Below, one piece after another: positions 1-16,711 of a stretch of DNA of 43,945 bases. Position numbers and translations under genes: made by a program. Under the pieces are notes generated by a model. That model was not told the DNA's origin, did not search any database, and was given only the letters and a program-made list of their open reading frames with translations. Source of the DNA: a virus; the IMG/VR virus record IMGVR_UViG_3300031672_000003, positions 1 to 43,945 of that record; one strand, 5' to 3'. Positions within the stretch are counted from its first letter, which is position 1, and each line of letters starts with the position of its first letter.

Positions 1-397
1 GCCCGGCCTTCTTAATAGCCGGTATCTGCATCCGGTTGTAGAATAGCTCCAGTGGGTCCTTGGAGTTTGGGCGCCAGTTGAACTCCCACATTCCCCAGCC
101 TTCCCCACAGAGGCGCTCAAGATTCGCGTCGAGGCGGTCTACGAGATCGTAGTATTCGTCAAGGACCCTTGCGCGACGCGCGGGATCGATTTTAACTCCA
201 CGCAGACGCATTTCAAGGGCAGGTCCTTGAAGAGATCGTGAGAAGGAATAGGTTGCGGTAGTGTGGTTATCGAGTTGAGGAAGAAGAACAGAAAGAACCT
301 CAGCGGTGATGACACAATCCAATCCATTGTAGCAAAGCTCCCTATCAAAGGCAGGAAGGTCTTCTGGGTTGATCTCATTGGTATGGATGATCTTCAA
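1..397 (-). CDS. DNA polymerase, family A, downstream piece (partial, runs off left edge)
   Basis: This frame continues the polymerase begun by the gene at 394-1398. Its early residues include CYNGLDCVITAEVL, which matches the exonuclease motif III (YxxxD) of PolA/T7-type polymerases, followed by the start of the palm/thumb region (PALEMRLRGVKIDP, a common family A segment). The proposed start is TTG at 397. It overlaps the upstream TGA as TTGA, and AAGAGG lies a few bases before it. The conserved polymerase motifs A, B and C would lie beyond the window. Either this is a genuinely separate gene translated by coupling with the upstream one, or the pair is one gene broken by a one-base deletion. 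The frame has no stop down to base 1. Identity is clear; gene structure is uncertain. Confidence 0.8.
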   Translation of the reverse strand, partial: MKIIHTNEINPEDLPAFDRELCYNGLDCVITAEVLSVLLPQLDNHTTATYSFSRSLQGPALEMRLRGVKIDPARRARVLDEYYDLVDRLDANLERLCGEGWGMWEFNWRPNSKDPLELFYNRMQIPAIKKAG

Positions 398-1398
398 TTA
401 TCCCTCTTGATTGTCGAGCCGCGCGCATGAAGATGCTTCCAAGGCCCGTGGTCGGTGTAGATCGAGCCGAGATAGCCGAGCCCTTTAAGGGCCTCCGGCT
501 GAAGAGCATGGTGGAGGAGCATCGTATCCTCCCCACAGTTCGCCGCCATTATCCCATACGCCCGCCAGAGGAAGCTCACATCGTACAAGCCATTTTGGAA
601 AAGCTTCTCTATGTCCTTGGCTTCAACCAAACCTCTAACAAATCCCCAAGCGTGTCGTTCGTCAGTTGCACTGTTCCAATAATTGCGGTTCGCTCGGCTT
701 CCGACAAAGGGGATGACAAGGCCGACTTCAGAGCTTGGAGCAAAACCAATGCAAGTAATGTGATTTCCCGAAGTTTCGATGTCGATGGAGAGAAAGTCTC
801 GGATGAACTTGGCTTGGAAGTCATGAAGGTCCTCAATGGTTTCGGGGATGTAGATGTCTGCCTTCGGCCGCCGGACCTCGGGATACTCCGCTTCCCGCGC
901 GGCCTTCATCAAGTCGAAGACGACTGTTGGCCGGAGTTCGTATTGATGCATCACCGCTGCGGGGTGGTAGGTCGGGAGTACCTTCACCCCCGGCACGGTA
1001 TGGGTGGAAAGGAATGTAGCGCCGCGATATTTTGAGATCGCCGCATGGCCAGAGAAGGCCCAAAGGGCAGCGTTGCCCATGGCGATGATGATGTTGGGTT
1101 GGGTTTCGGTGATCTCGGCGCGGAGGCGGTCGAGTTCTGGCTGGAACTCCTCTTGAACGTAGCCTTTGGTGAGGGGGCCGTAGCCAGGGATGGCGGTGCG
1201 CTTCGGCCCACAGAAGATTTCGGTCTTGCCATTATAGAGAAGATTGAAGACGTTAGTGAGGAGGCAGTCTGCGCGGGAGATGCCAGCCTCATCTAGCATT
1301 GGATTGAGCATCCGGCTCATCCAACCGATGAATGGGGTGCGGTGCTTGGCTTCTTCAGCGCCCCAAGCTTCGCCGACGACGCAGATTTTGCATTTCAC
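394..1398 (-). CDS. Uracil-DNA glycosylase-like domain fused to 3'-5' exonuclease part of family A DNA polymerase
   Basis: A protein of about 334 residues. Residues 1-165 resemble family 4 uracil-DNA glycosylases, the group long annotated as related to phage SPO1 DNA polymerase: CVVGEAWGAEE near the N-terminus, then TPFIGW, and HPAAV near residue 145. Only one Cys pair (CKIC) is visible where family 4 enzymes normally ligate an Fe-S cluster with four, so glycosylase activity is doubtful. From about residue 200 comes a DnaQ-like proofreading domain with motif I (DIE, 206-208) and motif II (NGLYD, 269-273). Motif III is missing here and lies in the next frame (1-397). The start is taken as GTG at 1398 because it overlaps the upstream TGA as GTGA; a TTG nine bases upstream is possible. 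Confidence 0.85.
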   Translation of the reverse strand: MKCKICVVGEAWGAEEAKHRTPFIGWMSRMLNPMLDEAGISRADCLLTNVFNLLYNGKTEIFCGPKRTAIPGYGPLTKGYVQEEFQPELDRLRAEITETQPNIIIAMGNAALWAFSGHAAISKYRGATFLSTHTVPGVKVLPTYHPAAVMHQYELRPTVVFDLMKAAREAEYPEVRRPKADIYIPETIEDLHDFQAKFIRDFLSIDIETSGNHITCIGFAPSSEVGLVIPFVGSRANRNYWNSATDERHAWGFVRGLVEAKDIEKLFQNGLYDVSFLWRAYGIMAANCGEDTMLLHHALQPEALKGLGYLGSIYTDHGPWKHLHARGSTIKRDN

Positions 1399-1655
1399 TT
1401 GCTGCAAGCCTCACTTGCCAACTTCGCATACCCCGCGATGTCATCCCAATGGTCCTTGAAGTCGGCTTGTCCTGAGAGAATGCGGGAGAGCTTTAGGGCG
1501 ATCATATCGAGGGCTTCACTCTGCACATCTGAAAAGTTCCGCAAGGCTGTGGGAGCATGTATGATTCTCTTGAGCCCCTGACTAATTGCGGCGTTGTTGG
1601 CGAAGTCGCCATGGGTCTTCCCTCGTTCGACAAGAAGTGGATCGCGGTCGGTCAT
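1395..1655 (-). CDS. DUF6378-like phage protein
   Basis: A protein of 86 residues. It shows the pattern I associate with DUF6378: LLVERGKTHGDF at the N-terminus, a helix ending in DMIALKLSRILSG, then DHWDDIAGYAKLA at the C-terminus. The function of the family is unknown; it is frequent in phage replication regions. The start at ATG 1655 is preferred over ATG 1664 because AGGA lies about nine bases upstream of it. The stop overlaps the GTG of the glycosylase/exonuclease gene, indicating coupled translation. Confidence 0.8.
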   Translation of the reverse strand: MTDRDPLLVERGKTHGDFANNAAISQGLKRIIHAPTALRNFSDVQSEALDMIALKLSRILSGQADFKDHWDDIAGYAKLASEACSK

Positions 1656-1707
1656 CGTGTGCATCCTACTTGGGATAACATAATTAAATGGAACGATCTT
1701 AAGTGGA

Positions 1708-1745
1708 TGCCCCCACTGCTGACTATCTGCTCCACAGTGGGGGCA
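1708..1745. terminator. Perfect 11-bp inverted repeat with T-rich flank
   Basis: TGCCCCCACTG (1708-1718) and CAGTGGGGGCA (1735-1745) form a perfect stem with a 16-base loop. On the plus strand it is followed by TTTCGTTTT, as in a Rho-independent terminator, yet the genes here run leftward. In the leftward direction no T run follows. It may stop antisense transcription, or act as a processing or stabilising hairpin between 1789 and 1655. Confidence 0.5.
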
Positions 1746-1788
1746 TTTCGTTTTCTACCCGCTGGCTGAGTTTGAAGGGCCCATACCT

Positions 1789-2241
1789 TTACTCAACCGC
1801 CGCGGTCCCTTTCACTCGTGCGAAGATCGCAGTGCCATCATCACTTGTCTCTTGGCCAATGGTGATGGTCACCTGCTTCCCCGGCGTTTCGGCGATCCGC
1901 TGCGAGAGGGTCATCTCTTCATCCCCTGCGTCGCAGTGATCGAGGAAGTCTTTCAGCCGCCACGCGGCGGTTTCGGTGAGGTAGTAGGTGTTCTTGATGG
2001 TCTTGTCCTTTAGGCCGCCGAGGTCCTTGAGGGTGTCCTCGTCCACATCGTCATGCGCGGATTGGAGTTTGAGGGTGAACTCGACGAACGGAGTTTGCTT
2101 CTTCGAGGACTTGTCGAAGCGCGGTTGGCCTTGGACAAGGCAGTCGTAGGTGCCGACCGGCATCGGCTTTGGGCGCTCGATGTCGGAGGAGGGGGTATCG
2201 AGGATGGATGAGAAGGATACTGCTGGGGCGGATTTTGCCAT
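1789..2241 (-). CDS. Phage single-strand-DNA-binding-like protein (uncertain)
   Basis: A 150-residue protein of a phage family that commonly sits next to Sak4-like ATPases. Visible features are a short N-terminal leader, KPMPVGTYDCLVQG (a beta-strand entry typical of DUF669-like/OB-fold phage proteins), FDKSSKKQTPFVEFTLKL, an acidic stretch, then KNTYYLTETAAWRLKDFL and a beta-rich C-terminus. By position and fold impression it may bind single-stranded DNA during replication or annealing, but no catalytic motif is visible and the assignment is inference. It begins two bases after the ATPase stop, so the two are probably co-translated. Confidence 0.65.
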   Translation of the reverse strand: MAKSAPAVSFSSILDTPSSDIERPKPMPVGTYDCLVQGQPRFDKSSKKQTPFVEFTLKLQSAHDDVDEDTLKDLGGLKDKTIKNTYYLTETAAWRLKDFLDHCDAGDEEMTLSQRIAETPGKQVTITIGQETSDDGTAIFARVKGTAAVE

Positions 2242-2242
2242 T

Positions 2243-3070
2243 TCACTTGATCTTTCTGAGTAGGGGTTTCACTGGCACTTGGGGTGGATCGCGGAGGACC
2301 GCGAAGAAGTCAGCGAGGCCGGTTTCGATCGGGTAGCTTTTCTCCATCTCAAAGGGTTTCGGGTTCTTCAGATCAATCATTGCTGTCGCAGCTGTTTGGA
2401 TCGTGCGTTTTCCTCCTGGGCTGGTTTGGCAAAGGGCGACGGAGTTGAAGTAGCGGGGGATGACAGGAGAAAGGGCAGACCCTACAGCGGTGGGGTAGCC
2501 CTTCCTCGTCCCATCGGGGTTGTCCACATACTTCACATGCGAGATTACGATGACGTTCGTCTCGAAGGACGGGGAGGTGAGGAGCGCGAGAACTTTCTCG
2601 ATCGCGTCTTGCGCTTGGCCGTACCACTGGCGGGGGTCTTTTGCAGAGGGGTTAAGTGAAGTTGCCCACTCAAAAGCAGAATCCGAGAGAAAGGTGAGAG
2701 AGTCGAGAACAAGAATATGGTCTGGGCCCCACGCAGCCGGGACACCAAGATCAACCTCACCGTACTTCCATTTGTCGAGCATCTTAAGACCTTCCACGAA
2801 CGCCTTCGGAGTTCCATCCACAATTGGTCCGCTGGCCGAAGATTTGTATTTGTCGCGGAGGGTGCGGAACTCAACTCTTTCAAGAGCCTCCGGACACTCG
2901 CGCGTGATAAAGGTCTTAAGCGTTTCAAGGCCATTGTCAAAATCCAGGATGTCGAGATGGTAGCCTGCTTTGGCTAGGGAGGTTAGCGCTCCGGTTTTCC
3001 CGCTACCGCTGTCTCCTTCGAGGAGCATTTTGGTGAATTTATTGCTTTGGTGGGAGGAGAGGCTTGGCAT
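2243..3070 (-). CDS. Sak4-like RecA-fold ATPase (AAA_24 type)
   Basis: A 275-residue nucleotide-binding protein. Walker A is GDSGSGKT at residues 19-26 and Walker B is ILVLDS at 119-124. LDFDNGLETL near 42-51 is the typical early strand-helix of this phage ATPase group. Proteins of this family (Sak4, phage nucleotide-binding protein) act in single-strand annealing and recombination with a partner SSB, which fits the neighbouring gene at 1789-2241. The length is normal for the family. The start ATG overlaps the 3' end of the preceding small gene (stop at 3039) by about 30 bases. Confidence 0.85.
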   Translation of the reverse strand: MPSLSSHQSNKFTKMLLEGDSGSGKTGALTSLAKAGYHLDILDFDNGLETLKTFITRECPEALERVEFRTLRDKYKSSASGPIVDGTPKAFVEGLKMLDKWKYGEVDLGVPAAWGPDHILVLDSLTFLSDSAFEWATSLNPSAKDPRQWYGQAQDAIEKVLALLTSPSFETNVIVISHVKYVDNPDGTRKGYPTAVGSALSPVIPRYFNSVALCQTSPGGKRTIQTAATAMIDLKNPKPFEMEKSYPIETGLADFFAVLRDPPQVPVKPLLRKIK

Positions 3071-3248
3071 TGCTCGCTACCTGTGTGTAGAGGGTTAAGA
3101 CATCTCCCACGCGGATATCCGCCATCGAGGGGATGTTGGTGAATTCTGCGTAGGCTTCGCCAAGCCGAACGCGGACCTTCCAGCCGTCGAAGCGCTTTTC
3201 GCAGGAGATGACTGGGTACTTACCGAGGATTAGAGTTAGTCGGCGCAT
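3039..3248 (-). CDS. Small hypothetical protein, predicted beta-rich
   Basis: A 69-residue protein I do not recognise. It has alternating hydrophobic strands (RRLTLILG, WKVRVRLGEAYAEF) and a segment SMADIRVGDVLTLYTQV that reads like a small beta-barrel, perhaps OB- or SH3-like. ATG 3248 is chosen because GAGGAAG lies upstream; a TTG at 3266 is in frame but lacks a ribosome-binding site. It overlaps both neighbours, as is usual in this block. Position between nuclease and ATPase suggests a DNA-metabolism accessory, but this is inference only. Confidence 0.55.
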   Translation of the reverse strand: MRRLTLILGKYPVISCEKRFDGWKVRVRLGEAYAEFTNIPSMADIRVGDVLTLYTQVASNAKPLLPPKQ

Positions 3249-3474
3249 CTTGGATGACTTCCTCAAAAGTTATCTTGATAAAGGCCCCTTCCTCGAAGGG
3301 CTTATCGCCCCCGAAGTAGAGTGATTCCCAACTGCCGTCGAAGCGGACCCACCAAGAGGTGACAGGGGCGGGGCCACGGGCCTCTACCAAAGCGGCTTTG
3401 GTGTAGACGACGTAGATGACTTTTGGTTTGGTTGGAGGTTCTTCAAAACTCAGCGGGCGCGTAAAGGATTCCAT
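3220..3474 (-). CDS. Hypothetical protein
   Basis: An 84-residue protein of unknown function. It has a proline-rich N-terminus (PLSFEEPPTKPK), a hydrophobic strand VIYVVYTKAALV and a central WWVRFDGSWESLYFG motif. The start ATG is preceded by GGAGGAAAG, a strong Shine-Dalgarno. It overlaps the 3' end of the nuclease gene by 25 bases and the next gene by about 29 bases. The strand-rich pattern is similar in flavour to the gene that follows, so the two could be partners. Confidence 0.6.
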   Translation of the reverse strand: MESFTRPLSFEEPPTKPKVIYVVYTKAALVEARGPAPVTSWWVRFDGSWESLYFGGDKPFEEGAFIKITFEEVIQDAPTNSNPR

Positions 3475-4412
3475 CTTTCCTCCGGAGGAAGCTTGTTGAA
3501 GTTGCTTTCGAGAAACTGCTCGCGAACGGCGGGGGATTTAGAGCAGATCGCGCGGAAACGGCAGCCGCCGAACTTATCACAAGCTGTGTCATTCTGAGGC
3601 CAGTAATTCGCGATCGCATACTGCTCCGCGAGAGCGAACCAGTAGTGGAGATCGTTGAGCCACTCCGCGAGTTGGTCTGGGGTGCGGTAGGTGATAGCGC
3701 GTTTGAAGATTGTCTCGTGCTCCTTCACCTGCGCCATGTCGATTATGACCCCGCGGACGGGGGTATCGAGGACGACTTTGGAGGCAAGGGAATAGAGGGT
3801 CATTTGATTATCCGGTTCCCATTTCTTCCCCCAGAAAGACCAGACGGTCTTGTAGTCGAGGACGAAGAGCTCGTCGTTGAAGGTGACGATGCGGTCAAGG
3901 TGGCCGGAGAGGAGATAGGGTTGGTCTGGAACTATCTTCCCTTTCTTTGTATCGCTGTGGCGGTACTCTGACTTTGCTTCTGGTCCCCAATCCAACTCGA
4001 ACCGGAAGCTCTGCTCCACCGCAGGCTTTCCATCGCTCTTTATGAACGTCTTCGCCCTGTCATCTTTGAACTTGTCAAGGTACCAAATGACCGTGCGGAG
4101 GAGGCCCGCGCGCGTTTTGGTTTTATGATCAAAGTCGAAGTCGGCGGCACGTAGAGATAGTTCGCGGACGGTATCGTGGACGGCGTCGTCATGGGTGATG
4201 CCAGCGGCGCGGGAGAGATCGTAGTTTTGGAGGGCCGTGTGGTACTCGATGCCGAAGCGGAGGTGGACGCTTTCTTCACGGCTGGACCATCCTTCAATCA
4301 TGGAGTATTGGTAGAGGCGAGGGCAGACTTTCAGGTAGCCGAGGGAGGTACTGTCCCAGGCGTATTGGATGTTGGTAGAAGGAAGGTAGGGGGAAGTTGG
4401 GGCTTCGGTCAC
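3450..4412 (-). CDS. PD-(D/E)XK nuclease, Cas4/RecB type
   Basis: A 320-residue nuclease. It has an early Cys (C30), the helix motif FGIEYHTAL (53-61), catalytic D173 in SGHLDR, then LDYKT with D186 and K188 (the D...DxK core), and the QxxxY helix motif (Q203, Y207). C278, C284 and C290 near the C-terminus together with C30 are arranged like the 4Fe-4S cluster of Cas4 and AddB-type nucleases. The likely role is processing DNA ends in replication or recombination with the ATPase and helicase encoded nearby. The gene starts at GTG 4412, overlapping the upstream stop as GTGA. AGGAGG before it is part of the upstream coding sequence. Confidence 0.85.
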   Translation of the reverse strand: MTEAPTSPYLPSTNIQYAWDSTSLGYLKVCPRLYQYSMIEGWSSREESVHLRFGIEYHTALQNYDLSRAAGITHDDAVHDTVRELSLRAADFDFDHKTKTRAGLLRTVIWYLDKFKDDRAKTFIKSDGKPAVEQSFRFELDWGPEAKSEYRHSDTKKGKIVPDQPYLLSGHLDRIVTFNDELFVLDYKTVWSFWGKKWEPDNQMTLYSLASKVVLDTPVRGVIIDMAQVKEHETIFKRAITYRTPDQLAEWLNDLHYWFALAEQYAIANYWPQNDTACDKFGGCRFRAICSKSPAVREQFLESNFNKLPPEERWNPLRAR

Positions 4413-4636
4413 AGCTTCCTCCTCTTAATCGGCTCTTCCCTCATCGCTAGCCCGAGCTTCGTCAGGTCGATTTTATCCTCCGCGCCCTTCTTCGGCTTGA
4501 CCCCGGCGTCAGAGGCTGCGCGGGCTCGGCGCTGGTAGGCGATCACCGCGTCTAAGTCCTTCGGCGCCATCGCAGCGAGGTCTTCGGCTTCGGCGGTGGT
4601 GATGAAGTGCCAGAGTTGGTCAATTTCATTTGGCAT
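4409..4636 (-). CDS. Hypothetical protein with C-terminal IKRRKL tail
   Basis: A 75-residue, mainly helical and charged protein with no recognised domain. It ends in EEPIKRRKL. The codons for that tail (ATTAAGAGGAGGAAGCTG) contain the AGGAGG ribosome-binding site of the next gene, which starts inside the stop codon (GTGA). The same arrangement recurs at 8592 and 11984. The tail may therefore be a by-product of translational coupling rather than a functional peptide signal. Confidence 0.65.
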   Translation of the reverse strand: MPNEIDQLWHFITTAEAEDLAAMAPKDLDAVIAYQRRARAASDAGVKPKKGAEDKIDLTKLGLAMREEPIKRRKL

Positions 4637-4799
4637 TTGCTTCGCGCTCCGCTTTCTTCGCCCTCACCGCCCGCCGCACCCAATCCCTCACCACGACCGA
4701 CCAGCGATCGCCGATCTCTTTCTTGAGGAAGGCAACATCGGCAGACCAGAGGTTCAGCGTGACTTTTGTGATTGGTTCGTCGGCTGGTGGGGCTGGCAT
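4626..4799 (-). CDS. Small ribbon-helix-helix-like protein
   Basis: A 57-residue protein. After a proline-rich start it reads ITKVTLNLWSADVAFLKK, a strand followed by a helix, then WSVVVRDWVRRAVRAKK as a second helix. This matches the length and pattern of ribbon-helix-helix DNA-binding proteins, though the match is by eye only. ATG 4799 is chosen because AAGGA lies seven bases upstream; an in-frame TTG at 4820 lacks a clear site. It overlaps the 5' end of the next gene by 11 bases and the preceding zinc-ribbon gene by about 46 bases. A transcriptional regulator role is possible. Confidence 0.55.
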   Translation of the reverse strand: MPAPPADEPITKVTLNLWSADVAFLKKEIGDRWSVVVRDWVRRAVRAKKAEREANAK

Positions 4800-4954
4800 C
4801 GGCGTTCCTTTCTTGTCCAAGGCATAGGGCCAGAGTATTCAATCTCTTCAGTGCGGAAGGTGAAGCGGCAGGAGAGGCAGCGGCGCTCGCGGACTTCAAG
4901 GCGGGTGGAGAGGACGGTGGTTTTGTTGTCGCAACGAGGGCAGAAGAAGCTCAT
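4754..4954 (-). CDS. Zinc-ribbon protein resembling the NrdR N-terminal domain
   Basis: A 66-residue protein with CPRC at 5-8 and CLSC at 26-29, forming a likely four-cysteine zinc ribbon. The layout (CPxC, then an STRLEVRERRCLSC stretch, then FTFRTEE) closely follows the N-terminal ribbon of the NrdR repressor. There is no ATP-cone domain, so it is not a complete NrdR. The C-terminal part (polar, Q/P/K-rich) overlaps the next gene and looks unstructured. The ATG overlaps the upstream stop as ATGA. It could bind DNA or RNA. Confidence 0.6.
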   Translation of the reverse strand: MSFFCPRCDNKTTVLSTRLEVRERRCLSCRFTFRTEEIEYSGPMPWTRKERRCQPHQPTNQSQKSR

Positions 4955-5073
4955 GGAAGTTCCATTTTATCTGGGATAAGAAAGGGAGGATTGGCCAAAT
5001 GCTCAACGATGCCTTCTCTTATCTTAGCCCAACCAATTCCATAGGCTGCGGCGTCGTGCAACACCTTAACCAT
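4951..5073 (-). CDS. Small hypothetical protein
   Basis: About 40 residues if it starts at ATG 5073 (MVKVLHDAAAYGIGWAKI...). The open frame extends upstream, but that part is antisense-like filler overlapping the preceding gene and offers no good start. The helical core with HDAAAYGIGWAKIREGI and the ATGA coupling to the zinc-ribbon gene support a real gene. The ribosome-binding site is not convincing, so the start is uncertain. Confidence 0.45.
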   Translation of the reverse strand: MVKVLHDAAAYGIGWAKIREGIVEHLANPPFLIPDKMELP

Positions 5074-5105
5074 CTCTTCTTCATTCTTCGCAAGTTTCTT
5101 CTCTG

Positions 5106-5606
5106 TTAGGCGCTTCCAACACCAGACTTCTCTCCACTCCTCATGCGGCCCGAAAGCCAGAACAACAGCAGGGACGGCGACACCAGGTAGGACGGCAGCG
5201 CCAACGGCGCGCTGAACGCGCCGCCGGCCTTCAAGGTCTCGGTCATGAACGCCGAACAGATGCAATGCTCATGCTCGTGCAGATCGAGCGGCACCAGCGC
5301 TGCGAGATCGATGATCGCAGCGAAATCGTAAGGCTCGCCGATCTTCGATCGCGCGAACGCTTCGGCCTTGGCATCGCCATCGCCGGACAGCGCCACATCA
5401 ACGAACCGCTCCGCCGCCAAATAGCTCTTGTCGTAGCCGACCGGCCGAATTTGCACGCCGCCCTTATCGTGAGCGCCGAGATAACCTTCGGCGACGACCA
5501 GCTCGACGTGCGACGGCACTGCCTTGATCCACGATGCCATCGGGCCTTCGCGGACCAAGATCAAGCGCGATACGAAGTCGTTGCCGGTGACGAAGCGTAG
5601 TTTCAT
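5106..5606 (-). CDS. Permuted papain-like (NlpC/P60-like) hydrolase
   Basis: A 166-residue protein. An early His occurs in AVPSHVELVV, followed by SKIGEPYDFAAIIDLA and a later Cys in HCICSAFMTETLKAGG. A His before the Cys is the order seen in circularly permuted NlpC/P60 enzymes (the YiiX/LRAT-type group), where the Cys is the nucleophile. Substrates in the group include peptidoglycan peptides, amides and acyl esters, so an endolysin-like role is possible but not shown. The ATG at 5606 overlaps the upstream stop as ATGA; the in-frame extension upstream is rejected because it lies over the lipoprotein gene. Codon choice looks less biased than in the helicase and nuclease genes. Confidence 0.7.
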   Translation of the reverse strand: MKLRFVTGNDFVSRLILVREGPMASWIKAVPSHVELVVAEGYLGAHDKGGVQIRPVGYDKSYLAAERFVDVALSGDGDAKAEAFARSKIGEPYDFAAIIDLAALVPLDLHEHEHCICSAFMTETLKAGGAFSAPLALPSYLVSPSLLLFWLSGRMRSGEKSGVGSA

Positions 5607-5794
5607 GGCGGCAACGGCACGGCCTTGCAGCCGCCGTCCTGTTTGCAGTCGTGAATGCCGGACAGAACAAGACCGCCAGCTCCGACCGCAGCCACGCCAA
5701 GCGCCAGTCCGGTTGCGAGCGGAATGGCCGCGCAACCGGATAGCGCCAGGATCATCGCCGCACAGAAGGTAATGCGGAGTGTCATGGTGGTCAT
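5603..5794 (-). CDS. Small predicted lipoprotein
   Basis: About 63 residues starting MTTMTLRITFCAAMILALSGCAAIP. The hydrophobic stretch followed by the lipobox LSGC indicates export and lipid attachment at that Cys by signal peptidase II. A second hydrophobic Gly/Ala-rich segment follows, then a short tail with two more Cys (CKQDGGC) and PLPP at the end. It is coupled (ATGA) to the papain-like hydrolase gene, so the two may act together at the envelope, for example in lysis. An outer-membrane spanin-like role is conceivable but no partner inner-membrane subunit was seen. ATG 5785 is an alternative start. Confidence 0.65.
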   Translation of the reverse strand: MTTMTLRITFCAAMILALSGCAAIPLATGLALGVAAVGAGGLVLSGIHDCKQDGGCKAVPLPP

Positions 5795-5829
5795 CGAGCG
5801 TGGGAACTTCTGTAAGATGAAGAGGAGCT

Positions 5830-6147
5830 TCAAGAGGCGATCTCCTCCACCTTTCCGAAGGTCACCTTCGGCTCGATCCTCACCCACCACGTCCCGTTGG
5901 AGTCGCGGGATGGCTCGCGGACGGTTAGGCTGTCGTAGCCGGAGGTGCCGTAGGCTGGATCGGTTGGCTCGTACTGCTCCATGCTCCGCTCGCGAGCGTA
6001 TTTACGGTAGGTGTGGAGACGGACGGAGAGTTGCTTCCCCGCGCCGTAGTCGGCGACTTCAATGCGGATGCCAATTTTGGTCTGGATGGCGCGCTCGAAG
6101 AGATCGACACAGTCGGAGTAGGAGGCGATAGAGATGGGGGTTGTCAC
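5830..6147 (-). CDS. Hypothetical protein
   Basis: A 105-residue protein with no recognised domain. The first half is compact (SDCVDLFERAIQTKIGIRIEV...), the middle is rich in Arg and Tyr (YRKYARERSMEQYEP), and the end is strand-like (WWVRIEPKVTFG). It starts with GTG overlapping the helicase stop as GTGA, so it is translated with the helicase mRNA. It could be a helicase partner, but only its position suggests this. Confidence 0.6.
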   Translation of the reverse strand: MTTPISIASYSDCVDLFERAIQTKIGIRIEVADYGAGKQLSVRLHTYRKYARERSMEQYEPTDPAYGTSGYDSLTVREPSRDSNGTWWVRIEPKVTFGKVEEIAS

Positions 6148-7595
6148 CAGCGGATTTCCTTCGTTTCAACTTCGTAGTAAGTCTCCATGGCGCGCGTCGA
6201 GATCACGTAGCGGAGGTTATTGTCCTGCTCCGTGTCCCGCAGTAGAAAGCTGTCAAGGTGGAAGACAACAGGCCACTCCAGCCCCTTCGCCTTATGGCCG
6301 GTTAGAAGGGTGATGGTTCCCTCTTGCTTGAATAGGTGGTCGGCGTAGGCACAGGCTTGGAGGAGGTTCTCGCCATGGGAAGCGAAGACTTTCATGCAGT
6401 CTGCGAGGTCGCTAGCGGTCGTTGACTGCCTCGCGAGTTTCTCCGCGAGCCAAGTGTCGATGGCGAGGAGGAGTTCGGCCCGCGTCATATCTTCGGACCC
6501 GAGGCGCTTCATGATCCCAACCACTTTCGGGCCAATGTCACTGCCACTAACAGATACGCTGCGGCCGCTAGAGAGAAGCCGTAGAGCAAGTGCAAAAAGC
6601 GGGGCGTTGTTCCGGCAAATGACAGCGCAGCCATCTGTGAAAGTGCCAGCAGTAGGATTGCGAAGCTTAACTGCTCTTCCACCTTCTTTGCTCCATTTCA
6701 TTGTGGGGACTCGCCAGTGGACTGCCTTCACGATCTCACTTGGGCAGCGGAAGGAGACGGAGAGGGACGCTTCGGCCATGACAAAGCGCTCCTTCAACTT
6801 CGCCATTCCATTCGTCATGGCTCCACGGAAGCCATAGATTGCTTGGTTCGGATCACCAACAGCGATGATCCGACTTCGCGAGAGCTTAGCGAGCATTTCA
6901 TGGTTGACTGGTGATAGGTCTTGTGCTTCGTCAACTAAGACAAGTGGGAACTTTGGGTATGTTCCTCCGAACAAAGCGGGCATGTAAACTTGATCGTTAT
7001 AGTCGATTCCGCCCGAGTAGGCGGCGCGGGTGGAGGAGGTGAGGACTGCTTCGCAGAGGTCGGTGAAGAGGGAGGAGGGGACTTCATCAAGGCGGCCGTA
7101 GAACTCATCGGCGGTAATAAGACGTTTGGCTGTGGGGAACTTTCCTTCGGGAACGTAGCCGAGGGACTTAGCGAGGGCGATCGCTGAGACGATATCCCAG
7201 AAGCTCTCCCACGCTTCGCCTTGGAGCGGGCGCGGGAGGGATTTGATCTCTTCGCGGAGGAGGTCTTGGGTTTTCTTTGGGTCAAGAGTTACCCTTCCTG
7301 CACAAGTAGCAGACCAGATGCGGTGACCGAGGCCGTTGAGGGTCCGGACAGTGGTGGTGGAGCGGAAGCGCTTCTCCATCTCAACCGCGATGCGCTTGTT
7401 GAAGGCAAGGCAGAGGACGGGAGGGGATGCGGCGGCTTGGATCAACTCTAGGGTGGAGGTCTTTCCCGAGCCAGCTAAGGCATTGATGAGGAGGTTGGAC
7501 TTGGTGGAGTGGAGGAGGGAGAGGATGTGCTCCTGCTCGGCGGTTGGAGGGAAGGCTGGGGAGGATTCGGCCTTTGGCTTGAGCTTAGCGACCAT
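6144..7595 (-). CDS. Superfamily 1 UvrD/Rep-like DNA helicase
   Basis: A 483-residue helicase with the expected motif order: TAEQ (Q motif, 18-21), AGSGKT (motif I, 41-46), VDEAQD (motif II, 221-226), GDPNQAIYGFRG (motif III, 247-258), SVSFRCPSEI (motif IV, about 279-288), TGHKAKGLEWPVVF (motif V) and LRYVISTRA (motif VI) near the C-terminus. It should unwind DNA 3' to 5' during phage replication or recombination. At 483 residues it is shorter than UvrD, as is usual for compact phage versions with reduced 1B/2B subdomains. It overlaps both neighbours by a few bases. Confidence 0.92.
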   Translation of the reverse strand: MVAKLKPKAESSPAFPPTAEQEHILSLLHSTKSNLLINALAGSGKTSTLELIQAAASPPVLCLAFNKRIAVEMEKRFRSTTTVRTLNGLGHRIWSATCAGRVTLDPKKTQDLLREEIKSLPRPLQGEAWESFWDIVSAIALAKSLGYVPEGKFPTAKRLITADEFYGRLDEVPSSLFTDLCEAVLTSSTRAAYSGGIDYNDQVYMPALFGGTYPKFPLVLVDEAQDLSPVNHEMLAKLSRSRIIAVGDPNQAIYGFRGAMTNGMAKLKERFVMAEASLSVSFRCPSEIVKAVHWRVPTMKWSKEGGRAVKLRNPTAGTFTDGCAVICRNNAPLFALALRLLSSGRSVSVSGSDIGPKVVGIMKRLGSEDMTRAELLLAIDTWLAEKLARQSTTASDLADCMKVFASHGENLLQACAYADHLFKQEGTITLLTGHKAKGLEWPVVFHLDSFLLRDTEQDNNLRYVISTRAMETYYEVETKEIRW

Positions 7596-11987: not shown

Positions 11988-12454
11988 AGCTTCCTCCTCT
12001 TGATCTGAAAGCCCCCAGCAGGAGCGGGAGGTTGCTCAACTGCTGGGGGCTTGGGTGCGACAACGGCGGGTGCCGCACCATTCTCAGCCAAGGCGGTCTC
12101 TCCCTGGCCGAGAACTGGAATTGGGGATGGGTCGGAGGAAAGCGGCTGGCCGAGGATGGTGTCGTCGGCGAGGGCTTCGCTATCGGGGACAGACTTCGGG
12201 ACTTCGTACTCGCCCTCAAGGACCGGCCGTTGCCAAAGCCGCGTGTCCCAGTCGAGGAACCATCCGTCGCCGATATGCCCCGCCTTCTCGAAGAACGGTA
12301 GCATCTTCCGATGGCGGCAGGTCGGTCGTGGTGCTGCAGGGCATTCGCAGTTCCCATTTGAGACTAGGTAGGAGGCTTCGTGATTCAGGTCGCGGTCGAA
12401 CTTCAGCAGAAGGACGCCAGCGGGGTGGAAACGGGCAGAGTAGAGGGAGGTCAT
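11984..12454 (-). CDS. SWIM-like zinc finger protein with IKRRKL tail
   Basis: A 156-residue protein. The N-terminal half contains GNCECPAAPRPTCRHRKML, a CxC...CxH arrangement as in SWIM zinc fingers, preceded by strands (HPAGVLLLKFDRDL, SYLVSNG). The second half is Pro/Ala-rich and probably disordered. It ends FQIKRRKL, with the AGGAGG for the next gene embedded in those codons. ATG 12454 overlaps the stop of the gene above as ATGA. SWIM domains bind DNA or proteins, so a replication or recombination partner is possible. Confidence 0.65.
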   Translation of the reverse strand: MTSLYSARFHPAGVLLLKFDRDLNHEASYLVSNGNCECPAAPRPTCRHRKMLPFFEKAGHIGDGWFLDWDTRLWQRPVLEGEYEVPKSVPDSEALADDTILGQPLSSDPSPIPVLGQGETALAENGAAPAVVAPKPPAVEQPPAPAGGFQIKRRKL

Positions 12455-12673: not shown

Positions 12674-12705
12674 TTCGCTGTCGCCGGGAAACTTTCGCTG
12701 TCGCC
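12674..12705 (-). repeat. Two 12-bp direct repeats abutting the -35 box
   Basis: TTCGCTGTCGCC occurs at 12674-12685 and 12694-12705 (GGCGACAGCGAA on the minus strand), exactly 20 bases apart, about two helical turns. The first copy touches the -35 element of the leftward promoter. This spacing suits paired binding of an activator or repressor on one DNA face. Confidence 0.6.
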
Positions 12706-12765
12706 TCATCCCTCCCTCACATCCCCTTCACCTCTCCCTCATATCTCCCTCACCGCCTCAATAAC
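12701..12765 (-). repeat. Left array of 11-bp iteron-like repeats
   Basis: Read on the minus strand from 12765: GTTATTGAGGC, then four 11-bp units: TGAGGGAGATA (12752-12742), TGAGGGAGAGG (12741-12731), TGAAGGGGATG (12730-12720), TGAGGGAGGGA (12719-12709), then TGAGGCGA. It is a mirror-oriented copy of the array at 12889-12950. Confidence 0.75.
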
Positions 12766-12819
12766 CAAAACCCACCATCTCCCCAAGGCCGGAAGGGAAA
12801 ATCGGAGATAGGAAAGAAT

Positions 12820-12840
12820 AAAAAAAAAAAAAAAAAAAAA
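12820..12840. other. Run of 21 adenines in an AT-rich core
   Basis: An uninterrupted A21 tract lies between the two repeat arrays. The 123 bases between the arrays (12766-12888) hold no gene I can support. A long homopolymer is unusual in this GC-rich genome. It could ease strand opening at an origin, or its exact length could be a sequencing artefact. Confidence 0.6.
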
Positions 12841-12888
12841 TAAAACCTTAGCTTCTTTTTTGAGGTGCCCTCTAGGTACCCGGTTTCC

Positions 12889-12950
12889 GTTATTGAGGCA
12901 TTGAGGGAGATATGAGGGAGATATGAGGGAGGGATGAGGGAGGGATGAGA
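12889..12950 (+). repeat. Right array of 11-bp iteron-like repeats
   Basis: On the plus strand: GTTATTGAGGCAT, then TGAGGGAGATA (12902-12912), TGAGGGAGATA (12913-12923), TGAGGGAGGGA (12924-12934), TGAGGGAGGGA (12935-12945) and a partial unit. With the left array it forms an imperfect inverted repeat with arms of nearly 60 bp. This is the arrangement expected of initiator-binding iterons beside an AT-rich unwinding element. Confidence 0.75.
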
Positions 12951-12960
12951 GCTCGATCGA

Positions 12961-13621: not shown

Positions 13622-14212
13622 TTACGCGCGTGCTTCCTGCCCCTTCCCTTTCTTCGGCTTCGCCGGGTTCTTTGCGATCAGTTCTTCGTCTGGGCTAATC
13701 CCACTCAAGTCGATAAGCCCTGTGGTCTCTTGCTTCTCCTTCTCCTGCTCCGCAAGGTTCGCTTGCGCAATCTTCATCAGCCTCGCGCCGTGCTCACCTT
13801 CCAGATACGCCTTCGCCGCAGCGGTGATCTGGCTGGCCTTGTAGTGGCTGACCTTCCCGCCTTTCTTCTTGATCGCGTCCTTGACCAGCGCCTTAGCCAG
13901 CCGGAGAGCTTCAGTCTTGGCTGCGCCGGAAACCTTACTCCGACCGCCAGTGACCCTAATCTCTCCATTCTTCATCTTCTCCCATTGCTCCGCGACCACT
14001 TCCATAATGGCCTTCTGGTGCGAAGCAAGCTTGCCCCCTTCCATGCCCTTCGCAGACTTCAGCTTGCTCTGGCCACGGTTGAGAACAACCTTCGCTCCTT
14101 GGAGAAGTATCTCCTTCAGCACGTCATCCGGCAGGGCCATGATGTCGTCAGTGTCGATCTCCATCCCCTGCCCTGCCCCGGCCTTCGGGACAGGAATGTT
14201 AAGCATACTCAT
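13622..14212 (-). CDS. Hypothetical basic protein downstream of a hammerhead ribozyme
   Basis: A 196-residue Lys-rich protein. The middle contains AAKTEALRLAKALVKDAIKKKG and SHYKASQITAAAKAYLEG, helices that could bind nucleic acid; the tail is Lys/Pro-rich (KNPAKPKKGKGQ). ATG 14212 is chosen because AAGGAG lies seven bases upstream. After cleavage by the ribozyme at 14273-14330 its mRNA would begin about 88 bases before the start codon. No family is recognised. Confidence 0.65.
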   Translation of the reverse strand: MSMLNIPVPKAGAGQGMEIDTDDIMALPDDVLKEILLQGAKVVLNRGQSKLKSAKGMEGGKLASHQKAIMEVVAEQWEKMKNGEIRVTGGRSKVSGAAKTEALRLAKALVKDAIKKKGGKVSHYKASQITAAAKAYLEGEHGARLMKIAQANLAEQEKEKQETTGLIDLSGISPDEELIAKNPAKPKKGKGQEARA

Positions 14213-14272
14213 CCATCTTCTCCTTCGGTTGCTGACTTGGATGCCAGCTAGCCGTGTCACAGTCTAGCATTG

Positions 14273-14330
14273 GGCCTCATCAGGTTGCGCCTTACGCAAC
14301 GAGGGAGCGAGAGGTTGCTCCCTTTCGGCC
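14273..14330 (-). ncRNA. Type II hammerhead ribozyme
   Basis: On the minus strand, in order: stem II strand GGCC (14330-14327); conserved GAAA (14326-14323); stem III GGGAGC / GCTCCC (14322-14317 and 14308-14303) with an 8-base loop; U16.1 and C17 (14302, 14301); stem I GTTGCG / CGCAAC (14300-14295 and 14289-14284) with loop TAAGG; conserved CTGATGA (14283-14277); closing stem II strand GGCC (14276-14273). Every invariant core base is present, and the A of GAAA pairs with U16.1. Stem II is the open end, so it is type II. Cleavage is predicted between 14301 and 14300. CCAGC upstream and GCTGG downstream may extend the outer helix. It lies between genes at 14382 and 14212. Confidence 0.88.
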
Positions 14331-14381
14331 TTCATACGCGGCTGGAACGATAGCCCTTAGTGGCGTGTAGGGCGACATGAC

Positions 14382-14609
14382 CTAATCCTTAATGAGCCGC
14401 TGGCAGCGTTTGCAGCGCGTCTCGATAAACATGTCCAAGCTCCAACCGTGGCGCGGAACGAGTCCGCAAAGCGCGGGCTGGCGTGTGATCTCACTGAATT
14501 TGGCGTCGGCCGCGGCTTCGACCGCGTGAAGCCGCCAGCCCCGTTGGCCGCCGTCGTGGCCGGTCGCTGGCGAGCGGGGATTAGGAGCCGTGGTGAGCCA
14601 ATGCTTCAT
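14382..14609 (-). CDS. Small zinc-binding phage protein
   Basis: A 75-residue protein. The C-terminal half reads RQPALCGLVPRHGWSLDMFI then CKRCQRLI. The 'ALCGL.PrHGW' box followed by a CxxC is a recurrent small phage protein type; the three Cys and a His probably bind zinc. Biological role unknown. It is the gene immediately upstream of the first hammerhead ribozyme, so its mRNA would end with the ribozyme's 5' product. Confidence 0.6.
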   Translation of the reverse strand: MKHWLTTAPNPRSPATGHDGGQRGWRLHAVEAAADAKFSEITRQPALCGLVPRHGWSLDMFIETRCKRCQRLIKD

Positions 14610-14612
14610 GGC

Positions 14613-14816
14613 CTATACCCCGCTCGACCAAGTGTTCGGATCGTAGCCGAACATCTTTTCGACCCGCCGAAACTGTGCGACCGCTTCATGGTAAACGGCT
14701 CGCCCATCCGGGCCGTCATCGTTGGCGGCGGTTTCGACCAACCGGCTTATGGCGATCTGCATCCCGTTCATAAGCCGGTCCTGCGCCTCTTGCTTGACGA
14801 CCTTGCGGTCGGGCAT
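14613..14816 (-). CDS. Hypothetical protein, helical
   Basis: A 67-residue helical protein (KQEAQDRLMNGMQIAISRLVE, REAVYHEAV-like second helix, then FRRVEKMFGYDPNTW). GGGAGG precedes the ATG. It is three bases from both neighbours, so the three small genes are co-transcribed. The function is unknown. Confidence 0.6.
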   Translation of the reverse strand: MPDRKVVKQEAQDRLMNGMQIAISRLVETAANDDGPDGRAVYHEAVAQFRRVEKMFGYDPNTWSSGV

Positions 14817-14819
14817 GGC

Positions 14820-14978
14820 TCAGCCCTCCCGCTTGTTAAGGTCGCGTGCCCGGCGCTTCGCGGCGGCTTCATCCTCGTACCGGGCGATGACCCGGTTAAA
14901 GCCGCGGAACGTGGCAACCACGGCGTAAGGGTGGGCTGCATCAAAGGTCATCTTCTGGACTTCGTAGAGCTTCGTCAT
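14820..14978 (-). CDS. Small hypothetical protein
   Basis: A 52-residue protein starting MTKLYEVQKMTFDAAHPYAV and ending with a basic helix (DEAAAKRRARDLNKREG). It resembles a common type of small phage protein with 'KMTFDAAHPYAVV'. AGGAG seven bases before ATG 14978 supports this start. The frame stays open to a TTG at 15137 that itself has AGGAGG six bases upstream, so a 105-residue form, or a leader peptide fused in frame, is a real alternative. Confidence 0.6.
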   Translation of the reverse strand: MTKLYEVQKMTFDAAHPYAVVATFRGFNRVIARYEDEAAAKRRARDLNKREG

Positions 14979-15158
14979 GGCCGTCTCCTGTTTGCCTATG
15001 CCGTTAATATGGCACAAGCCGTTGTGGGAGACAACCGGATATATCGCATAGGTACGACGGGAGGTATGCGTGGGGCGCAACCGGATAAGCATGATTGGCA
15101 TATCAGTCCGCCGGTGCTTTTTGCGTTTGTTAGGCAAGTGGCTCCTCCTATGTTGCGA

Positions 15159-15188
15159 AGTATAGCACACCCCGCGATCACTTTCCAA
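15159..15188 (-). promoter_or_regulatory. Leftward promoter with overlapping GTGATC half-sites
   Basis: On the minus strand, -35 TTGGAA (15188-15183), 18-base spacer, -10 TATACT (15164-15159). The region 15171-15219 holds several GATCAC/GTGAT half-sites in both orientations, and CCCCGATCAC pairs with GTGATCGCGGGG across a 27-base loop. This suggests operator control of the genes from 14978 leftward. Confidence 0.6.
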
Positions 15189-15252
15189 TCACGGTTTATC
15201 ACATTCCCGTGATCGGGGCGTGACTGTTGATAACAGCTTCGTGAATGGGATG

Positions 15253-15438
15253 TTACTTGATTTCCCCCGATCTGTCAGTAAAGGGCCGCACGTAGTTAAT
15301 GCTAACCTCCTGTTGATCGTATTGCTCTTCATATATGTCCTGTCGTGCCAGCCATTCCTCCGCTTCCCTCATTGTTATAAATGGGCCATAGAACGAGGTT
15401 GTATTCCGGTCCACCACGGCTATAATATAGCTTCCCAT
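15253..15438 (-). CDS. Small hypothetical protein
   Basis: A 61-residue protein (MGSYIIAVVDRNTTSFYGPF...) with a short beta start, FYGPFITMREAEEWL as strand-helix, and an acidic Gln-rich end. The pattern 'GPF.t..eAe.Wl' is common in small phage proteins of unknown function. AGGAG lies upstream of the ATG. Confidence 0.6.
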   Translation of the reverse strand: MGSYIIAVVDRNTTSFYGPFITMREAEEWLARQDIYEEQYDQQEVSINYVRPFTDRSGEIK

Positions 15439-15447
15439 TGCTCTCTC

Positions 15448-15540
15448 CTATCTCCAAACCACCACCACCACGCAAAGCCCTACCCAAACCACCAAAACCG
15501 CGTAGGTTAGGGCAGGGGTAAGGTAGACCTCACTCAGCAT
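15448..15540 (-). CDS. 30-residue single-pass membrane microprotein
   Basis: The frame reads MLSEVYLTPALTYAVLV... and ends VVVVVWR before TAG. About 20 consecutive hydrophobic residues form one probable transmembrane helix, followed by a single Arg. AGGAGG lies about six bases before ATG 15540, a strong start signal. It overlaps the 3' end of the upstream gene by 11 bases, and its stop sits in the ribosome-binding region of the next gene. It could be a holin-like or regulatory membrane peptide. Confidence 0.5.
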   Translation of the reverse strand: MLSEVYLTPALTYAVLVVWVGLCVVVVVWR

Positions 15541-15721
15541 CCGTTTCCTCCTCTCTCCTATTTAGCGATAGCCCTCGCCCGGTGTAGGTGTTCCCTATCC
15601 CCAGGTTCGGATCAGGTGTAGGCCCATGCAATCTCACCATTGCCAGATGCCTCGCCCCCGCTTCGTACTTCGCACTAACTACAACGTTAGTTCCGCCAGC
15701 GCTTGTGAAGTGATAGCGCAT
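15530..15721 (-). CDS. Small hypothetical protein downstream of second ribozyme
   Basis: A 63-residue protein (MRYHFTSAGGTNVVVSAKY...), beta-rich at the start with LAMVRLHGPTPDP in the middle and a charged tail. AAGGAG about seven bases before ATG 15721 marks the start; the longer open frame above runs through the ribozyme and is rejected. After ribozyme cleavage its mRNA would have a leader of about 170 bases. The function is unknown. Confidence 0.55.
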   Translation of the reverse strand: MRYHFTSAGGTNVVVSAKYEAGARHLAMVRLHGPTPDPNLGIGNTYTGRGLSLNRREEETDAE

Positions 15722-15864
15722 CGCCGTTCTCCTTTCGCGCCGCCCCGCCGCTCGCCGCCAATCCGCCTCCGCTCGACCCTTGGCCGCCCTAGCGGCCCTT
15801 CGGCTTCCGCGCACCAGCGGCGAGTTGTGGGCGATTGTGCCCCATCCTGCTTCGGCTCGACTTG

Positions 15865-15921
15865 GGCCATCATCAGCACGGGCCTTACCCGTGGACGGCG
15901 CATTCGCGCGCCGTTTCGGCC
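15865..15921 (-). ncRNA. Second type II hammerhead ribozyme (stem II variant)
   Basis: On the minus strand: GGCC (15921-15918); GAAA (15917-15914); stem III CGGCGC / GCGCCG (15913-15908, 15901-15896) with 6-base loop; U16.1 and C17 (15895, 15894) giving a GUC cleavage triplet; stem I CACGGG / CCCGTG (15893-15888, 15882-15877) with loop TAAGG, identical to the first ribozyme; CTGATGA (15876-15870); one extra T (15869); GGCC (15868-15865). The extra T before stem II is the only departure from the first copy and might lower activity. Both copies share AAGGCCGAAA and GGCCCAA at their ends. Cleavage is predicted between 15894 and 15893. Confidence 0.8.
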
Positions 15922-15927
15922 TTTGGG

Positions 15928-16233
15928 CTAGGCTCGATGTCCTCCCTGTGCCTGCGCCGACAGCCAGTCCGCTAGCCCTTGGCTATCCTTCGGCTCCTTC
16001 TTCGGCTTCCGCTCCCTCGCCGGCCCTACCGCGACACTAAGCTTGCCGAAGTTATATCCAAACTTCAGCTCTTGCCCTTCCGGCATATTCGCGCCGAACG
16101 CTTCCCGCATCGCCTGTTCAAACTTCGCCTTATCCGCTGCGTAAACGCGATACTGCGCCTTCATACCCGTGTACGCTTCTTGCAAATGCGGCAGCAGCGT
16201 GCTCGGATCAATCTCTTTCCAATCGCCAGACAT
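15928..16233 (-). CDS. Hypothetical protein, first gene of the 16.2-13.0 kb leftward block
   Basis: A 101-residue protein. It has a helical N-terminal half (TLLPHLQEAYTGMKAQYRVY, AADKAKFEQAMREAFG) and a strand segment LKFGYNFGKLSVAVGPA before a Lys/Glu-rich linker and a C-terminal helix (GLADWLSAQA). Phage proteins with 'lkFGYNFGkLsvAv' are common; the function is unknown. GGAGG precedes ATG 16233. The second hammerhead core begins seven bases after its stop. Confidence 0.65.
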   Translation of the reverse strand: MSGDWKEIDPSTLLPHLQEAYTGMKAQYRVYAADKAKFEQAMREAFGANMPEGQELKFGYNFGKLSVAVGPARERKPKKEPKDSQGLADWLSAQAQGGHRA

Positions 16234-16465
16234 AGCCTTCCTCCACTCTCTCCGCCCCTTGGGGCTTGCTCGGCATATCGCCGCGTCGAGTATCGTGCTG
16301 GTGAAATGTGGCCGAAATAAGTTTGAGCGATCACGAAATCGATCACGCTTTTTCACAACATCGTGATCGAGCCTTGGCGCGGCTTTTGCACTCTGCAACC
16401 CGCGTGCCAAGGCGCTCTGCGATAGCAGCATAGCTGCCTTGCGCGCCACGCAACTGTTGCCCTTC

Positions 16466-16518
16466 CGCCACAGTGACCAATCTGCCACACTGTCTCGCCT
16501 GCGCAACAGTGACAAATC
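16466..16518. repeat. Pair of 17-bp direct repeats
   Basis: CGCCACAGTGACCAATC (16466-16482) and CGCAACAGTGACAAATC (16502-16518) differ at two positions and are 36 bases apart. The related CAACTGTTGC (16451-16460) and CACACTGTC (16486-16494) lie in the opposite orientation nearby. They may be operator sites. Confidence 0.5.
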
Positions 16519-16682
16519 GGCAACGGGGGAGGGGCGGCCCCCAAAACTCGCGCGCGGATTCGGGCCAATGGTCCCTCGCAAACTGCGGGTGAAATGAAAG
16601 GCCCATATACTTCGTGGGGTTTGCGAAGGAGCCATACGCTTCGCGATCACGGCGAGGTAACGTTTGCGTGAGGTGGGTGGTA

Positions 16683-16711
16683 TTGACATTTCGCGCGAAG
16701 TGTGGTATAAT
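16683..16711 (+). promoter_or_regulatory. Perfect consensus sigma70 promoter for the virion block
   Basis: TTGACA (16683-16688), 17-base spacer, TATAAT (16706-16711). The spacer contains the perfect palindrome TTCGCGCGAA (16690-16699), a candidate operator. The ATG at 16720 follows the -10 by only eight bases and no Shine-Dalgarno is present, so the transcript is likely leaderless or nearly so. Confidence 0.85.

Follow-up and report, generated by a model that had tools for sequence, protein, structure and literature searches.

What bacterial and phage hammerhead ribozymes do has been a standing question since 2011, and an intergenic gap among the leftward genes of a virus genome raises it anew. 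Within the window (the whole stretch of DNA analysed, 43,945 nt, IMG/VR virus record IMGVR_UViG_3300031672_000003), an earlier sequence-only reading had placed one type II hammerhead at 14273–14330 on the minus strand. Is this a genuine ribozyme, how does it relate to described hammerheads, and what might it do for the genes on either side?

Two hammerheads in one operon

The minus strand of 14270–14333 (ribozyme 2) carries a complete type II hammerhead, with stem II open and all invariant core positions present. Its RNA runs GAA-GGCC-GAAA-GGGAGC-AACCUCUC-GCUCCC-UC|GUUGCG-UAAGG-CGCAAC-CUGAUGA-GGCC-CAA. A conserved A (14331) stands 5′ of a 4-bp stem II (GGCC 14330–14327 with GGCC 14276–14273), the helix that closes the junction and that covaries in relatives; then come GAAA (14326–14323), a 6-bp stem III (14322–14317/14308–14303), the UC cleavage site (U16.1, 14302; C17, 14301), a 6-bp stem I (14300–14295/14289–14284) with loop UAAGG (14294–14290), and CUGAUGA (14283–14277). 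Judged by core position, the cut is predicted after C17, at 14301|14300, and the 3′ product would start at 14300 with a 5′-OH. The sequence-only reading had each element in its place, correct to the base, and was equally accurate in its predicted cut and in the 88-nt leader from there to the ATG at 14212, which is preceded by an AAGGAG Shine–Dalgarno sequence. The minimum-energy fold (−27.3 kcal/mol, z −2.38) is exactly the hammerhead, and chance would produce the core pattern, even if no pairing is demanded, only 0.05 times per window. Ribozyme 2 lies 48 nt behind the upstream open reading frame (ORF).

That reading stopped at a single copy, but the operon has two: it overlooked another type II hammerhead, also on the minus strand and 1.59 kb upstream, at 15862–15924 (ribozyme 1), with a predicted cut, again from its position in the core, at 15894|15893. 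The two share the UAAGG loop I and the GGCC/GGCC stem II, differ in stems I and III, and both keep the core CUGANGA ... GAAA ... UH (H = not G) intact, with stems I and III loop-closed and stem II open; all three helices covary in relatives. Stem II of ribozyme 1 begins 6 nt past the upstream TAG stop, and its leader is 172 nt long. The window pair forms a cluster: both ribozymes are on the coding strand and flank genes that belong to a single operon. In ribozyme 1, A9 and stem II are separated by an additional U (15869). One extra base here, nearly always U, is present in 33 of 133 relatives among the matches listed, and such cores recur in unrelated contigs with the rest of the core intact.

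Covariance models treat the two copies differently. An Rfam scan at gathering thresholds and at E ≤ 10 gave no hammerhead match at 14273–14330, and in a relaxed-threshold scan RF02276 scored ribozyme 1 (15861–15921) at 33.3 bits, under its gathering score of 37. We scored the window with R2, a covariance model of 94 ribozymes from other contigs that leaves the window out and contains only unaltered sequences; these were found and aligned using a first model, R1, for which the additional U had been taken out of two sequences (MAFFT alone misplaced that base). At E ≤ 10, R2 finds just two matches in the window, ribozyme 1 (15862–15924, 74.3 bits, E 1.3e-18) and ribozyme 2 (14270–14333, 67.7 bits, E 9.3e-17), the E-values being rough and the bit scores (74, 68) decisive. 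The sequence-only reading had held that a low Rfam score would count against a hammerhead; no match was returned, but this has no diagnostic value here, because most of the subclass escapes Rfam (RF02276 recovers 5 of 54 members). Chance resemblance or a dead relic could also appeal to that missing match, and we give such an origin of ribozyme 2 practically no credence: it is opposed by the R2 value (E 9e-17), the perfect core and pairing, the second copy in the same operon, and an orthologous hammerhead in relative L011, at the ribozyme 1 site right after the same gene, with different stem sequences.

A widespread subclass that Rfam mostly misses

Relatives were gathered by pattern and by structure. 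A pattern scan of viral contigs returned at least 118 stretches, and a similar pattern run over about 85,000 bacterial and archaeal genomes only 24; scanning the retrieved loci by structure yielded 133 distinct cores among the matches listed. Across 119 distinct aligned elements among those matches, in alignments fitted to the model structure, standard pairs fill 98.0% of pair cells, double-sided changes occur in 16 of 17 pairs, and covariation scores 0.775, compared with 0.163 in shuffled alignments and at most 0.11 with the partner slid. The result was repeated on 34 matches from bacterial genomes and Burkholderia phage Bcep176. L053, L161 and L012, identical or near-identical pieces of the same phage, were excluded as independent support. 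Core, topology and covariation across the 119 distinct relatives all bear out the type II assignment, with cleavage itself predicted from the sequence. By these sequence criteria the window carries a real ribozyme pair, beyond chance, within a uniform, Rfam-poor subclass: a known kind of RNA, in a widespread form that Rfam mostly misses. Searched by BLAST against cultured phages, the element had chance matches only, and phage PaP3, named in the 2011 paper (PMC3088659), has no R1 or R2 match.

The nearest described RNAs are the type II hammerheads of Perreault et al. 2011 (PMC3088659, RF02276), which share with the window ribozymes the core and the stem-II-open permutation, as well as intergenic sites in phages, clusters flanking genes and the strand of those genes. 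A member familiar from that work is the Bcep176 hammerhead (NC_007497, 12165–12240), which R2 finds and which resembles the window copies in its ATA-GGTC stem II, 6-bp stem I and UUAUG loop; its stem II starts at 12168, directly behind the annotated stop codon of gp32, whose last base is 12165. This ribozyme was tested and is active if slow, with an A6C core change (PMC3088659); unlike this low-activity variant (CUGCUGA), both window copies have intact cores.

A putative A–U contact in place of the pseudoknot

The described type II consensus (PMC3088659) and the RF02276 model combine a short stem II with a pseudoknot between loop I and the tail 3′ of stem II, of at least 4 bp in most examples of the consensus. 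In the window group, by contrast, stem II is strictly 4 bp long and preceded by an A, stem I has 6 bp and is closed by a U-initial pentaloop, and there is no pseudoknot signal: subclass-wide, the longest helix between loop I and the 3′ tail averages 2.26 bp, against 2.24 bp in re-paired controls, and in the window copies loop I (UAAGG) does not form this pairing with the tails (CAAUG and CAAGU). What the group has instead is regular. Stem II is 4 bp long in 127 of 133 cores among the matches listed, and in 131 of the 133 stem I pair 1.6 is followed by a U and a 4-bp stem II is preceded by an A, the A having been no part of the search pattern; both bases are also present in 40 of the 42 listed cores that fall outside that pattern. 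They are U14294 and A14331 in ribozyme 2 and U15887 and A15922 in ribozyme 1.

These positions match those of a tertiary pair in the sTRSV hammerhead crystal structure, where the last A of the stem II loop forms a Hoogsteen pair with the U adjacent to residue 1.6; of the tertiary pairs, this A–U pair alone is shared by the two hammerhead classes with solved structures (PMC2553840). Like the window ribozymes, sTRSV has a 6-bp stem I followed by U, and an A on the far side of stem II. It differs in being a type III hammerhead from a plant satellite RNA, with stem II closed by a GNRA-type loop, whereas stem II is open in the window copies and only the A is left. From the matching positions we infer that an equivalent A–U contact forms in the phage group, and that the window ribozymes, lacking the pseudoknot, would adopt an sTRSV-like stem I/stem II geometry. 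The signature lets members be found where the standard covariance model fails.

The two exceptions to the signature both come from contig L096 and by eye look pseudoknotted (loop GUUAGUCG, tail CAGACU); Rfam scores one of the two at 48 bits, the highest value in the Rfam scans. L096 carries three hammerheads on its plus strand (1579–1627, 2029–2070 and 2835–2881), two likely pseudoknotted by eye and one of the A–U contact form.

Placement between stop and start codons

Where does the subclass sit relative to genes? With ORFs called by a simple script rather than a trained gene finder, and among the matches listed, the stop of a frame of at least 60 codons begins no more than 12 nt before stem II in 97 of 130 elements (about 75%; 7% at random). 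The distance from the cleavage site to the next Shine–Dalgarno start has a median of 53 nt, against 298 nt at random, and 9% of the listed elements overlap an ORF, against 46% at random. In 33 of 33 multi-ribozyme loci among these matches, all copies share one strand. Arrays of 12 (L070 contig), 8 (L085 contig) and 7 (Singulisphaera sp. GP187 chromosome) alternate with genes, and in L070 the order of stop, ribozyme and start is repeated. The subclass thereby offers a clear arrangement in which a ribozyme follows a stop codon and precedes a start codon, repeated as many as 12 times on one contig. Placement is looser than usual for the window pair, which follows the upstream stop by 6 and 48 nt and has leaders of 172 and 88 nt.

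Such spacing could reflect a regulated switch, with processing gated by a ribosome finishing the upstream gene, or by a factor. The commonest register, in 29 of 130 listed elements, has the last base of UAG as the first base of stem II (stop at −2), no stop codon falls inside the 5′ part of any of the 130, and a terminating ribosome would cover stem II. We nevertheless consider gating improbable: at distances of 6 and 48 nt at most the first window copy would be affected, tight spacing arises in compact phage genomes without regulation, and no ligand domain is seen.

Two of the arrays deserve description. L070 (IMGVR_UViG_3300038412_000035, 171–5159, minus strand) has at least 11 hammerheads in 5 kb, nearly one per gene, and several of its copies have stems so alike that they look like duplicates made inside that genome. 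L208, from the chromosome of the planctomycete Singulisphaera sp. GP187 (1109–6217, minus strand), carries seven members of the subclass within about 5 kb; they lie between small genes, in a region that is perhaps a prophage.

The phage locus and its relatives

The window pair belongs to a tailed phage. Among the rightward genes, from 16720 on, are those for terminase, portal/adaptor, major head, tail and endolysin proteins; the leftward ones encode, among others, a helicase and a Sak4-like protein, and the ribozymes sit near the start of this leftward cluster. Upstream of ribozyme 1 lies a minus-strand gene at 15928–16233 (101 aa, likely start ATG 16233, TAG stop 15930–15928), conserved in L006, L007, L011, L017, L002 and L019. 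Here a 253-aa ORF is listed (15928–16689, minus strand) that extends into the rightward promoter; its conservation begins near residue 130–157, so the gene probably starts at 16233. Between the ribozymes is a block of small minus-strand ORFs (14382–15721; 63, 61, about 105, 67 and 75 aa) with Shine–Dalgarno sites, and downstream of ribozyme 2 a 196-aa gene (13622–14212, minus strand), also with a Shine–Dalgarno sequence, is conserved in at least 10 relatives.

Presence of the ribozyme is patchy among close relatives. Besides the L011 copy, L003 has a hammerhead further on, before the 196-aa gene. In L002, L006, L007 and L017 both flanking genes are present and no ribozyme was found, and an Rfam scan of the same place in L002, L006 and L007 returned no ribozyme or other RNA. 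Hammerhead-like CUGANGA matches in these last three were rejected, as the core is missing. Because these four keep the flanking genes without it, the ribozyme is dispensable in some lineages and kept in others.

This patchiness is what selfish or neutral hitchhikers would produce if they were copied between intergenic phage sites, active yet with no role in gene expression, and the likeness of stems I and III (0.68 within a locus, 0.52 between loci) and the near-identical copies in L070 fit as well. We regard hitchhiking as unlikely, though a more serious contender than gating, since the precise, strand-consistent placement between stop and start and the long-term covariation point to selection in place, and no mobility gene or target-site signature is seen accompanying the 60-nt element.

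Proposed role in mRNA segmentation

Hammerhead cleavage leaves a 2′,3′-cyclic phosphate and a 5′-OH. In bacterial mRNA decay a 3′ hairpin slows 3′–5′ exonucleases, and a structured 5′-OH end is a poor substrate for 5′-monophosphate-dependent RNase E and for RppH. In type I hammerheads both closed hairpins fall on the upstream product and in type III both on the downstream product; only type II gives one to each.

Against this background, the ribozymes probably cut polycistronic phage mRNA in cis, separating upstream from downstream genes. Two type II hammerheads in the leftward (early/replication-side) cluster would act on the nascent transcript and cut it at 15894|15893 and 14301|14300; cleavage at both would free a 1.59-kb RNA (15893–14301) with the small-ORF block. 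By established hammerhead chemistry, each upstream product would end in the stem III hairpin with a 2′,3′-cyclic phosphate, and each downstream product would carry its 5′-OH directly on the stem I hairpin. With a hairpin at the 3′ end and a structured 5′-OH, co-transcriptional cleavage would therefore give segments with protected ends, and the likely benefit would be that each mRNA segment has a lifetime of its own and ends that are structured, protected and free of triphosphate; segmentation and stabilization as the purpose is our inference from these end groups.

Described hammerheads offer precedents. Clustered phage and prophage hammerheads cleave in vitro and in E. coli (PMC3088659, 2011). 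In haloviruses HF1 and HF2, too, a hammerhead of an early operon closely precedes a gene: it lies 13 nt before one for a helicase, and a transcript 5′ end maps within three nucleotides of the cleavage site (PMC3088659); they differ from the window in their divergent core variant and in being archaeal viruses.

Two same-strand hammerheads 1.59 kb apart would also release 15893–14301 with ligatable ends, as a discrete and perhaps circular product of the retrozyme or viroid-like kind. Such excision seems to us even less probable than gating: the block consists of ordinary small ORFs with Shine–Dalgarno sites, copy number in related loci is 1, 2, 3 or as high as 12, their spacing is not fixed and they share no insert, and spliced or circular products were looked for from clustered prophage hammerheads and none found (PMC3088659).

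Segmentation of the transcript, which we prefer, has its own counter-evidence in the failure of 4 of 18 consensus hammerheads in vitro (PMC3088659), the ribozyme-less close relatives, the looser placement of the window pair and a promoter-like site between the ribozymes (TTGGAA-18-TATACT with extended TG, 15159–15188, minus strand, a consensus match); given that site, the genes may not depend on one transcript. If phage mRNA is segmented in this way, the ribozymes would be a protein-free means of fixing where single messages begin and end and how long they last, and counts of self-cleaving RNAs in viromes would be too low. A broader proposal, which we hold tentatively and at slightly less than even chances, is that the A–U-contact type II subclass, largely absent from Rfam, is a systematic stop–ribozyme–start punctuation that would turn whole operons into single-gene mRNAs with a hairpin at both new ends; if true, those hairpins would explain the phage preference for the type II permutation.

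Other signals near the locus

A perfect consensus promoter (TTGACA-17-TATAAT with TG, 16683–16711, plus strand) stands immediately before the rightward structural genes. An Rfam MIR7533 match at 12701–12956 fell far under its gathering score and was discarded. Operator-like repeats (GATCACG/CGTGATC) occur in intergenic DNA at 15188–15222 and 16342–16376, 74% alike over 35 nt; they are possible repressor sites, and one of them adjoins the minus-strand promoter-like site between the ribozymes.
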